Positions 13,140 to 60,442 of a DNA stretch of 64,000 nt are shown piece after piece. The position numbers and the translations under genes were made by a program. The stretch comes from Atopobiaceae bacterium (lineage in GTDB: Bacteria > Actinomycetota > Coriobacteriia > Coriobacteriales > Atopobiaceae). Each line of letters starts with the position of its first letter. The first letter of the stretch is position 1. Below the pieces are notes generated by a model. That model was not told the origin of the DNA and ran no database searches. It worked only from the letters and a program-made list of their open reading frames with translations. The DNA lies in NCBI GenBank assembly GCA_030525685.1, contig JAUNEG010000013.1, positions 1 through 64,000 of the forward strand. Direction: 5' to 3'.

Positions 13140-13182
13140 GGCGGCGTCACCTGCTTGTCACATGCGAGGCGCGGGCGGGAGT

Positions 13183-13303
13183 CCTTCTCGCCGCGCGCCC
13201 TTCTCGCCGGCCCCTTGCGCCCCCGGTGCGATTTGTGCACGAGTTAGCGCGTCGACCGGCCTCTCCCGTCGAACACCAACTGGGAAAACGTGGCACCAAG
13301 ACA
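13183..13303. repeat. Left direct repeat flanking the nuclease-like gene
   Basis: About 120 bases nearly identical to 14543-14663 in the same orientation (differences seen at 13272 and in GGCACC/GGCGCC). It comprises two CTTCTCGCC motifs and the first two-thirds of a 99-bp element. The two repeats are 1,360 bases apart and bracket one gene. Confidence 0.85.
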
Positions 13304-13331
13304 ATTCTTCCACCCCCTAACTCGTGCACAA
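13233..13331. repeat. 99-bp inverted-repeat element, copy 1
   Basis: Ends TTGTGCACGAGTTAG (13233-13247) and CTAACTCGTGCACAA (13317-13331), a perfect 15-bp inverted repeat. On the complementary strand the inner segment CGTTTTCCCAGTTGG lies at the same offset as the core of copies 3 and 4. Located just past the 3' end of the nuclease-like gene. Confidence 0.9.
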
Positions 13332-13344
13332 CCCGTGCGCCACG

Positions 13345-14517
13345 TCAGCCGAGAAGGCCGTGGAAGTCGACAAGCACCTCGCGCCGCAGCTCCGCACGCC
13401 GAGCGAGAAACCCCTCGTCTCGTGGCACCACCTCGCGACCCAGCTTCTCCGCCACCGTCTGCGCCAGCGCCTCGAAGCGGCTTGCGCTCGCCACCTGCGC
13501 ATATGTGACGAACAGCACCTCGACGCCCGTGCTCTGCAGCGCCAGCGCGCGGTCCGCGTCGGAGAGCTCGCGACGCTCGCCAAGGTGAAACGTCGCGCTG
13601 TGGCACTCCACGTCAAGAGCGCGCCGGCCCTCCCCCTCCGGCCAGAACAGATCGCAGTAGCAGGCACTCTGACCAGCAAGGCGACGAGCTCGAGCGTCAA
13701 GGGCCAGGCGCTCATTGTGCACGAAGCCACCATGGCCCTCCCCGCCGAGCTCGGGCCCCAACCCGAGCAGCATTCCCGTCTGCACCTCAAAGGGCGAGGC
13801 CGCACCCGGCACCACGAGCTCGGCCGCCTGCGCCAGCGCATGGCGACCCCACCTCCCCGTCGCCCGAGCGGCCAGCGCCGCAAGCTCCTCCGGTAACGCG
13901 AGCGGCGGCCGAGACCAGACGTCCGTGAGATGCCCCTCACGGTCAAACGACGGCCGCCACCCGTCCACGACCGGCACGCCCTGCCCAGCCGCGAGCTCCT
14001 CGACAAGCGCGCGCAGCGCCGCCGGCGCCCGGTAGACGCTGAACGACCCGCAGAACTCGGATGCGACCATGACCAGGCGCGGCAGCGAGAGGCGCGGCGC
14101 CAACTGGAGCAGCGTGAGCGCCGGCGAGGTTATCAGGAGCTGCAGCCCAAGCGGCACGAGCTCGCCCTCGGCGAGCACTGGGTCCACCACATGCGGGCGC
14201 AGCAGCCGCGACGCACGCCGCTCGCCCTTTGACCAAGCGGCAACGTCAACGGGTGCCTCCAGGCTTGGCAGGAGCGTACGGAGGTTGAGCAGCACCCCAT
14301 ACGCCGCCTCGTGCGAGACTGCGGTGCCGGGCCGCTCGTGGAGCGTACCAAGGCGCCAGAGGCCACGCTCCTCCATGAGCTCTCGCCGGGCCTGAACGAG
14401 TCGCTCGATGGGAATGCCCGCGTCGGCGCCCCACCACAGCGGGTCGGCGATGAGGCGCATGAGCGGCGGGGTCCGCCAGACCGCAAAGGCGGAAGCCCCG
14501 CAGATGGTCGCGTCCAT
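13345..14517 (-). CDS. PD-(D/E)XK nuclease-like protein between direct repeats, function unknown
   Basis: 390-residue protein with no signal peptide or membrane segment. The N-terminal two-thirds are helical and unassigned. The last third looks like a restriction-endonuclease fold: an acidic helix start ASPFEVQTGMLLGLG, then a strand pair CDLFW and ALDVECHS, i.e. D...ExxH in place of the usual D...ExK, followed by a helix and VEVLFVTYAQV. This resembles DUF559/Vsr-like domains, by pattern only. ATG 14517 has a poor ribosome site. The gene is bracketed by 120-base direct repeats containing 99-bp elements and stands alone, unlike its operonic neighbours. It could be a nuclease or an inactive DNA-binding derivative. 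Confidence 0.55.
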   Translation of the reverse strand: MDATICGASAFAVWRTPPLMRLIADPLWWGADAGIPIERLVQARRELMEERGLWRLGTLHERPGTAVSHEAAYGVLLNLRTLLPSLEAPVDVAAWSKGERRASRLLRPHVVDPVLAEGELVPLGLQLLITSPALTLLQLAPRLSLPRLVMVASEFCGSFSVYRAPAALRALVEELAAGQGVPVVDGWRPSFDREGHLTDVWSRPPLALPEELAALAARATGRWGRHALAQAAELVVPGAASPFEVQTGMLLGLGPELGGEGHGGFVHNERLALDARARRLAGQSACYCDLFWPEGEGRRALDVECHSATFHLGERRELSDADRALALQSTGVEVLFVTYAQVASASRFEALAQTVAEKLGREVVPRDEGFLARRAELRREVLVDFHGLLG

Positions 14518-14542
14518 TCGTCGAACACCGCCTCTCTCGTGC

Positions 14543-14663
14543 CCTTCTCGCCGCGCGCCCTTCTCGCCGGCCCCTTGCGCCCCCGGTGCGATTTGTGCAC
14601 GAGTTAGCGCGTCGACCGGCCTCTCCCGTCGAGCACCAACTGGGAAAACGTGGCGCCAAGACA
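14543..14663. repeat. Right direct repeat flanking the nuclease-like gene
   Basis: Same-orientation partner of 13183-13303, starting 26 bases upstream of the nuclease-like ATG, so it may also carry that gene's promoter. Recombination between the pair would delete the gene cleanly. Confidence 0.85.
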
Positions 14664-14691
14664 GGCCTTCGGGCAGCCAACTCGTGCACAA
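14593..14691. repeat. 99-bp inverted-repeat element, copy 2
   Basis: TTGTGCACGAGTTAG at 14593-14607 and CCAACTCGTGCACAA at 14677-14691 (one mismatch in the right arm). Interior nearly identical to copy 1 except the last 25 bases. Confidence 0.9.
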
Positions 14692-14738
14692 ACGCAAACG
14701 ACACGCGTCGGGCGAGAAAAACCGCGCGCCCGTGGCCG

Positions 14739-33269: not shown

Positions 33270-33377
33270 ATGGTCCCCCTCGTTCTTCTCGCCTGCGCCC
33301 ATTGTCTCACAGCGGCGCGGGCCCACGTCCTTCTCGCTTGGCCCCGCACAGGCCGGCCACCCCACGCCCTCTTCACG

Positions 33378-33477
33378 TTGTGCACGAGTTAGCCATGCTC
33401 CCAGTCCCCATCGATTTGCGTTTGCGCAGGTGGCGAGAAGGTCCACGGGGCCGTGCGTCTCCCTAACTCGTGCACAA
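33378..33477. repeat. 100-bp inverted-repeat element, copy 3
   Basis: Perfect 15-bp ends TTGTGCACGAGTTAG (33378-33392) and CTAACTCGTGCACAA (33463-33477). The core TGCGTTTGCGCAGGTGG is followed by CGAGAAGG, and aligns base for base in position with the reverse complement of copy 4. Located between the NadE-like start and the superoxide reductase stop. Confidence 0.92.
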
Positions 33478-33531
33478 ATGAAAGGGCGGGCGGAAGACGG
33501 GATGGAGGGCCGAGCACCGCCGCGCACGAAA

Positions 33532-53342: not shown

Positions 53343-53436
53343 GGGGTCTCCAGACGTGAGGTTCTTCTCGTCACATCCTACCCTACCCCGAGCACCGGAC
53401 AGAAATGTCGCATCCGGTCGGAGGCGCGGGCTCGCG

Positions 53437-53535
53437 TTGTGCACGAGTTAGGGCGCTTGCAGTCGCGCGGTCCTTCTCGCCAACTGCGTAAACGCAGGTG
53501 AGGCAAGGTCAAAAGAGTGGCTAACTCGTGCACAA
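53437..53535. repeat. 99-bp inverted-repeat element, copy 4
   Basis: TTGTGCACGAGTTAG (53437-53451) and CTAACTCGTGCACAA (53521-53535). Core in reverse orientation relative to copy 3, containing GGTCCTTCTCGCC. Lies between the addB start and the TrpR-like regulator stop. Confidence 0.92.
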
Positions 53536-53596
53536 TTTGAGCAAGGTAAGCGGGACGGGTCGGACGGCGCCCACGCGGCGAGAAGAACCGCGGACC

Positions 53597-53899
53597 TCAG
53601 CCGCGCGGGCCGTCCAGGCGCCCGAGCACCAGGCGGTAGCCGCCGGTCGGGCCGTTGAGGCATTTGGAGACGCGGCTCACCGTGGTCGAGGAGGCTCCGG
53701 TCGCGCGGGAGACGTCGACGTAGGAGGCACCGGCCGCGAGCATCGTGGCCACCTCGAGGCGCTGGGAGAGGTCCTCGATCTCGCGCGGGGTGCACAGGTC
53801 GGAGAGCAGCGCCTCCGCCTCCTCCGCGGATCCGAGCGAGCAGAGCGCCTCGAGCAGACGCCTCTTCTCGGCCTCGCCGACTCCCCCGAGCTCCGCCAT
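53597..53899 (-). CDS. TrpR/YerC-family DNA-binding regulator
   Basis: 100 residues of the Trp-repressor-like helix-turn-helix superfamily: DLCTPREIEDLSQRLEVATM and LAAGASYVDVSRATGASSTTVSRV followed by KCLN, the YerC/YecD pattern. Ligand and targets unknown. ATG 53899 follows GGGGAGGGG. Divergent from the HAD phosphatase gene over a shared spacer that contains a small inverted repeat. Confidence 0.88.
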   Translation of the reverse strand: MAELGGVGEAEKRRLLEALCSLGSAEEAEALLSDLCTPREIEDLSQRLEVATMLAAGASYVDVSRATGASSTTVSRVSKCLNGPTGGYRLVLGRLDGPRG

Positions 53900-60215: not shown

Positions 60216-60299
60216 GACACCCCTCGCTCGCCGTGCAGGTGCGCGGCCCCGGGGCGGACGTGCGTCCGGCAAGGATAGCGCACCTGCGAGTTCTTCTCG

Positions 60300-60435
60300 C
60301 AGACAGTCCCGTGGGTCTTTCCCGCGGGCCCACCGCCGCGCCGCGCCCGGCCTGGCAGTTCGGCGGACCTCGCCTCGTCCCGGGATCAGCGCCCGCCGGC
60401 TCCTCCGGGACCCTTCGTGTCCGCTCCTCTATCGA
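60300..60435 (-). ncRNA. Probable lysine riboswitch (L box) in the lysA leader
   Basis: On the minus strand the leader starts GATAGAGGAGCG (60433-60422), matching the conserved AUAGAGGNGCG; then CCGCCGAACTG (about 60366) matches the GCCGAA core block, and GGGACTGTC (about 60310-60302) the closing GGCUGUC-type block. Position directly before lysA-dapA-dapB-dapH fits feedback by lysine. Downstream, CTGCGAGAAGAACTCGCAG and a long CAGGTGCGC/GCGCACCTG stem near the ribosome site may be the expression platform; I see no U-rich terminator, so translational control is likely. Confidence 0.75.
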
Positions 60436-60442
60436 TGTGGGT

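Follow-up and report, generated by a model that had tools for sequence, protein, structure and literature searches.

Predicted Vsr-like nucleases of the Coriobacteriales, each associated with its own short inverted-repeat elements

What does a gene for a putative nuclease do between two nearly identical copies of a short repeat, when further copies of that repeat lie elsewhere in the genome? The question is raised by a locus in a 64 000-nucleotide stretch of DNA (hereafter the window, meaning the whole stretch that was analysed) from an Atopobiaceae bacterium close to Thermophilibacter/Olsenella. A first-pass annotation had likened this locus to gene-plus-element pairs such as RAYT/REP, and had added that the repeats might be only a recombination trace. 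RAYT genes sit between two REPs, which are otherwise dispersed (PMC2817692), and REPINs, made of two inverted ends and a diverse spacer, owe their duplication to RAYTs that are present in single copy and passed on vertically (PMC8049555).

The nuclease gene and its flanking repeats

The reading frame at 13345-14517, on the minus strand, is open, and its ATG start and C-terminus are conserved among homologues, so that the gene called there by the annotation can be taken as real. Also as annotated, it has on either side an element of 99 bp, whose inverted ends are TTGTGCACGAGTTAG. The features of the locus are the following.

13345..14517, minus strand: nuclease gene, 390 aa, with an N-terminal part (residues 1-235, unassigned fold) and a predicted C-terminal Vsr/EDxHD-like nuclease domain
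13435..13800, minus strand: predicted nuclease domain, residues ~240-361, with E244, D289, E304, H311, D320 and R323
13183..13356 (approximate), no strand: left repeated unit, with the 149-bp direct repeat; bounds from synteny with genome G025; overlaps the last codons of the gene
14543..14720 (right bound approximate), no strand: right repeated unit, from the direct repeat and G025 synteny
13233..13331, no strand: left 99-bp element, inverted 15-bp ends TTGTGCACGAGTTAG / CTAACTCGTGCACAA
14593..14691, no strand: right 99-bp element, ends as in the left element with one mismatch
13279..13288, plus strand: central core ACTGGGAAAA of the left element, 1.5 bp off the element centre
14639..14648, plus strand: central core ACTGGGAAAA of the right element

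The direct repeats had been described as 120 bp long. They do exist, but the copies (13183-13331 and 14543-14691) measure 149 bp, with 93% identity and a spacing of 1360 bp, and comparison with the corresponding locus of Thermophilibacter gallinarum DSM 107455 (G025) gives a repeated unit of ~178 bp. Within the window the gene locus is, as had been claimed, the only place where two elements lie close together.

Predicted fold, conserved residues and selection

In the AlphaFold model of the protein (pLDDT 91, pTM 0.91), the C-terminal domain has a Vsr-like, EDxHD-type nuclease fold. The best-matching solved structures for its ~120 residues are the catalytic domain of I-Bth0305I (3r3p, Z 9.7), NGO0050 (3hrl, 8.8) and Vsr (1cw0, 8.2), and the earlier guess of a 'PD-(D/E)XK-like' domain was thus right at the level of the fold. 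Support from sequence comparison alone is weak (E 0.12 for 3r3p). Among 24 homologues, E244, D289, E304, H311 and R323 are invariant and D320 is nearly so (at least 90%); the E-D-x-H-D pattern of the EDxHD group is thus present, E...D...H...D being conserved as in I-Bth0305I and Vsr, and a catalytic role is inferred from the positions of the residues only. I-Bth0305I and Vsr lack the long N-terminal part of the window protein, and for this part taken alone (~235 residues) no PDB chain reached a Z of 2 or more among 204 Foldseek candidates. Pfam returned no match for the window protein itself; DUF559 (PF04480) and REase_MTES_1575 (PF18741) were matched weakly, each by 6 of 24 members of the family (best E 0.001 and 0.0003, respectively). 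The NG86 dN/dS ratio was 0.26 between the window gene and its orthologue in Olsenella sp. An270 (G004), and 0.18 for a pair of paralogues, which argues that the function is maintained by purifying selection. Homing-endonuclease behaviour was rejected because the elements that flank the gene, its putative sites, are both intact; unlike EDxHD homing endonucleases, the gene has no intron, intein or intervening-sequence context, and its link is with dispersed elements and not with a single homing site.

Association of the family with flanking elements

The 1.93-Mb genome of the source organism has 13 paralogues, 11 of them with such elements, and a loose first look at other genomes of the genus gave 10-29 candidates. 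That homologues should sit beside elements more often than chance was a check proposed with the annotation, and it was borne out. With 57 homologous genes, and counting inverted repeats with an arm score of at least 13 and a loop of 20-140 bp at no more than 450 bp from the gene, element-like inverted repeats were present in 62 of 107 homologue flanks vs 34 of 312 flanks of control ORFs from the same loci (odds ratio 11, p 3e-21); the shuffled-sequence control gave 1 in 535. The flanks are not all phylogenetically independent, the controls may hold elements of other families, and degenerate elements are missed at the single threshold that was used. At all 14 loci of this test with elements on both sides, the left and right ends match, and they are wholly different from locus to locus (GAGTGTACGAGTT, GAGTGCGCGAAAG, TCGAATGGACGAAATT, TTTCTGTACATT, TCGTTTCGTTTTTATGCAGTTA and others). 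Left and right ends are shared also at five loci from other families of Coriobacteriales (L240, L241, L243, L245 and L247). The similarity of the ends rises with the identity of the proteins (Mantel r 0.38, p 0.0005, 39 protein-end pairs). The excess at flanks, the possession of its own ends by each homologue and the co-variation of ends with protein support the RAYT/REP-like pairing of gene and dispersed elements which the annotation had suspected.

In the search that was made, strong homologues came from Coriobacteriales only. The weak Pfam matches of family members notwithstanding, DUF559-like loci from other Actinomycetota, themselves weak matches, differ in having no such flanking elements (9 loci). 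At one locus of an uncultured Atopobiaceae (L097, CALULC010000008.1), six elements with GACTTTTGCACGAGCG ends, of constant length and with two types of interior, lie within 11 kb around the cognate gene.

Dispersed copies

The exact 15-mer end occurs 11 times in the 1.93-Mb genome vs 0 times for a reversed-pattern control. Two dispersed elements lie in the window, with these features.

33378..33477, no strand: dispersed 100-bp element, ends as at the gene locus, inside a ~190-200-bp insertion (~33320-33519)
33421..33430, minus strand: central core CCTGCGCAAA of this element
53437..53535, no strand: dispersed 99-bp element, ends as at the gene locus, inside a ~190-bp insertion (~53410-53608)
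53483..53492, plus strand: central core ACTGCGTAAA of this element

Further window-type elements are found on contigs C8, C18 and C29 of the same genome. For the other paralogues, copies were counted in a ~427-kb sample picked around genes and elements, not in the whole genome. In this sample the gene with CGTCCCGGAATCGGCGG ends is on C6, with unlinked copies on C39, C29 and C32, and the one with GGGTTTGGGTTCG ends is on C4, with unlinked copies on C8, C18 and C25; single copies were seen for CGAGTCTGTACTTTT ends (gene on C39, copy on C8), CGTTCGTGATGAA ends (gene on C39, copy on C40) and GAGGGTATGTGCAC ends (gene on C25, copy on C4). Among congeners, paired GAGTGTACGA ends occur 12 times in G004, 9 times in G024 and 7 times in G006, whose orthologues carry those very ends, 1-2 times in three other genomes and nowhere else in the genus, with 0 for reversed controls; the genomes in this collection are often incomplete. 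In G195, a complete chromosome from another family of Coriobacteriales, the end CCCTCGACGTGAAAG and close variants are found 33 times vs 0 for the control, the 19 end pairs that were read all measure 131-132 bp, and the gene again lies between two complete units. Copy numbers are modest, at about 5-20 per element family.

Two arrangements of another kind may be mentioned. On contig C8 of G000 (L127:6238-6327), a window-type end pair is reversed, i.e. outward-facing, with ~60 bp between the ends. At 2780-2909 of the window there is an inverted repeat, CGCAGGTTGTGCGCAC, of 112 bp and thus element-sized, for which no cognate gene was identified.

Element geometry and the central core

The lengths of the elements go in steps of one helical turn. 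Although the search for GAGTGTACGA elements permitted every loop of 62-92 bp, the 27 elements of this family measure only 98-99, 108-110 or 119-120 bp, a periodicity reached in 0 of 5000 simulations, and the window-type family has lengths of 88, 99-100 and 120 bp. Of 105 interiors, 36 contain a core, [AC]CTG[CG][GCT]NAAA, vs ~1 in shuffles. The motif was defined after inspection and its count is therefore post hoc, but its position was not used in the definition: 35 of 35 cores sit no more than 12 bp from the centre of the element, where 12.4 would be expected, and almost all have an offset of +1.5/+2, -3.5/-4 or +7 bp. Most other elements have an ACCTGC/GCAGGT-like sequence at the centre, and in about a third or more of the GAGTGTACGA family an AT-rich centre replaces the core.

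The arms might in principle be read as hairpin RNA or as a cruciform. This reading is disfavoured because the arms of G195 elements do not co-vary: their variable parts match no better within than between elements (p 0.60; for the inner end the signal is weak, p 0.05), a result that speaks for a pair of protein sites on double-stranded DNA rather than a hairpin. In the GAG family there is an excess of matches between arms of the same element (p 0.0002), confounded by genome of origin. Searches with Rfam gave no match over the gene locus up to E 1 and none at gathering thresholds at the elements of 12 other loci; over the window and the element loci the only matches were a lysine riboswitch and SRP RNAs, none of them at elements. 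The riboswitch aptamer lies at 60268-60439 of the window, on the minus strand (59 bits). A likeness to integron attC sites (GTTAG/CTAAC) was dropped, since the other element families lack GTTAG/CTAAC.

Insertions, unit termini and loss of the gene

Both dispersed elements of the window lie in insertions at sites that are empty in relatives. At the 33378 site ~190-200 bp are missing in G023, G014 and G003, and at the 53437 site ~190 bp are missing in G003, G023, G004 and G024; in each case the flanks align directly on either side. No target-site duplication was identified at these empty sites, and no recent polymorphic insertion was seen within one species. In G195, a distant relative, one ~195-bp unit is dispersed in no fewer than 19 copies, and its termini, TGCACGCGAA...TTCGCGTGCA / TGCACGCGAATCG...CGATTCGCGTGCA, are sharp and lie exactly 32 bp beyond the inner ends (unit 195-196 bp). 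The TGCA at both of these may represent a terminal repeat or else a palindromic target that was duplicated. Several intergenic slots are occupied in different species by elements whose ends differ and whose interiors are unrelated (G000b/G004_3 and G000e/G004_7/G024_2), which indicates that slots are re-used or that elements are replaced.

The main subfamily has one copy per genome, with distinct paralogues besides. Its gene occupies the slot between argC and the DJ-1 gene in G000, G004 and G006, and a flank matches in a truncated contig of G024. At this locus T. gallinarum (G025) shows just one ~178-bp unit, without any remnant of the gene, an arrangement consistent, as far as the sequence can tell, with loss of the gene via recombination between the flanking units. 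The annotation had held that elements in genomes lacking the gene would speak against the pairing. Such genomes exist, but only two were found, G025 with five elements and G023 with two, and the former, given the single unit at the locus, is simply read as gene loss. The two elements of G023 (C11:19119-19227 and C12:73567-73686) differ in end type, one having GAGTGTACGAAAC and the other TTGTGCACGAGTTA; as neither has a close cognate gene, they are apparent fossils.

Proposed mechanism and alternative explanations

The explanation which we consider probable, without regarding it as settled, is that of a family of Vsr-like nucleases in which each member has its own short, non-autonomous mobile elements, in the manner of RAYT and REPIN. 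The window gene would encode a member of this large Coriobacteriales family (EDxHD-type). The protein, probably a dimer or higher oligomer, would recognise its cognate element by both inverted ends and join these across the short loop; we propose that the ends keep helical phase because they are brought together in this way. The nuclease domain, or a host factor, may then act on the shared core at the loop centre, and the resulting DNA breaks could lead to the ~175-200-bp unit being copied or moved into new intergenic sites. The gene itself would remain between two units, vertically inherited like a domesticated transposase, and recombination of the flanking units could delete it and leave a solo unit. 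The sequences themselves establish that genes and elements are paired with specific ends, that elements are dispersed and have inserted at sites once empty, that their lengths are quantised around a central core, that the gene is under purifying selection and that a solo unit exists. Binding of the ends, looping, cleavage at core or terminus and transposition are all inferred, and so is the assumption that this protein, and not another enzyme, is the mobiliser. To our knowledge, no nuclease of the Vsr/EDxHD fold transposes DNA alone. The wider proposition, that a class of mobile-element systems exists in which a nuclease of this fold mobilises inverted ends synapsed at helical phase around a core, order-wide and with more than 10 pairs per genome, is one on which we find ourselves evenly divided. 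No published description of a nuclease-element system was found in the open-access papers that were searched.

The explanation has against it the lack of an identified target duplication and of a polymorphic insertion within one species, the modest copy numbers, the AT-rich centres of the GAGTGTACGA family and the elements of G025 and G023 that have no cognate gene. A further point against mobility is that helical phasing is expected also of a non-mobile looping or regulatory site. The main rival explanation, which we regard as unlikely but cannot neglect, starts from there: the elements would be loops bridged by protein, with paired operators and a central bending site, serving regulation or chromosome organisation. 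Each family member would bind its own sites and autoregulate, the nuclease would be secondary or serve turnover, and elements would spread rarely, via recombination. The quantised lengths, the specificity of the ends and a centre that is either a fixed core or AT-rich fit such loops, as do the arms of G195 elements, whose lack of co-variation suits two protein sites more than a hairpin, and the fact that the ends found in one intergenic slot depend on the species. What it accounts for poorly is that elements arrive as discrete ~200-bp insertions together with their flanks, that G195 units are near-identical with sharp termini, and that the residues assigned by position as catalytic are invariant; moreover, the unrelated interiors at shared slots suggest replacement or reinsertion, not co-evolving operators.

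Two further explanations seem to us quite improbable. One takes the family for defence or toxin-like nucleases, kept inactive until infection or DNA damage by chromosomal elements acting as decoys or self-markers. The many diversified paralogues per genome do resemble defence repertoires, and PADLOC run on 24 members gave weak matches to homing-endonuclease-type models only (HEase/Hhe, E 0.007, 2 and 1 members). But there is no convincing match to a defence family, the elements have no tie to phage, and inheritance of the main subfamily is vertical and tied to a single locus, from argC to the DJ-1 gene, rather than to defence islands. The other, to which we give equally little weight, makes the gene a passenger: the elements would belong to an unrelated transposase, and recombination would have bracketed the gene with them, which is the recombination trace envisaged in the annotation. 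Recombination between units does occur, as the direct-repeat layout and the solo unit of G025 show, and this part of the idea accounts for the G025 locus. It leaves unexplained why each paralogue has its own type of ends, on both sides and in dispersed copies, in three families of Coriobacteriales, and why the ends track the divergence of the proteins.

Relation to known systems and implications

Returning to the nuclease family with its own, presumably mobile, elements, the likeness to RAYT/REPIN lies in a gene between two elements, dispersed cognate elements and co-diversification, and in a window subfamily that is single-copy per genome and vertically inherited. The gene nevertheless falls outside the RAYTs, since it does not encode the HUH transposase that defines them, and Pfam gives only the weak DUF559/MTES_1575 matches. 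The predicted enzyme has a Vsr/EDxHD-type fold instead of that of a HUH Y1 transposase (Transposase_17 type domain), the ends, of 12-28 bp, lack the hairpin head of the REP type, the lengths are helically quantised around a shared central core, and there are many paralogue-element pairs per genome (13 genes here). The units also resemble MITEs in being short, non-coding, with inverted termini and in many copies (~195 bp in G195). They differ in that the related gene has a complete unit on either side instead of a single pair of terminal repeats, and in the lack of a clear target duplication, the fixed helical spacing and the core at the centre.

If the explanation holds, RAYT/REPIN would have an independent counterpart without homology to it, in which nuclease genes were domesticated along with populations of short elements, and the Vsr fold would join the enzymes that move DNA. 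More than 10 nuclease-element pairs would co-exist per genome in common gut bacteria and account for much of the repetitive intergenic DNA of Coriobacteriales. Genetic tools have been reported for some Coriobacteriia, Eggerthella lenta among them (PMC9734109). The many natural pairs of protein and site might also make a code of DNA recognition readable.

Sequences surrounding the elements

Most elements in the genus are flanked by a motif, with TTCTCGCC to their left and GGCGAGAA to their right, e.g. at 13182-13210 and 53577-53592 of the window and at L140, L144 and L165. The motif sometimes forms tandem GGCGAGAAGGNC arrays that extend outwards from the element, and coding DNA, too, commonly contains the 8-mer. 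At L262-L280 of G195, many of the 195-bp units are enclosed by a longer repeat that is itself symmetric (TCTGACTCCCC...TTTGACGCACAATCGAG, unit, CCGGATTATGCGTTAA...GGGGAGTCAGA), which looks like a nesting of elements from different families. At several chromosomal positions of G195 (L265, L266, L268 and L278), dispersed elements are adjoined by palindromes, TGTTTCACGTGAAACA, identical to the textbook parS consensus.
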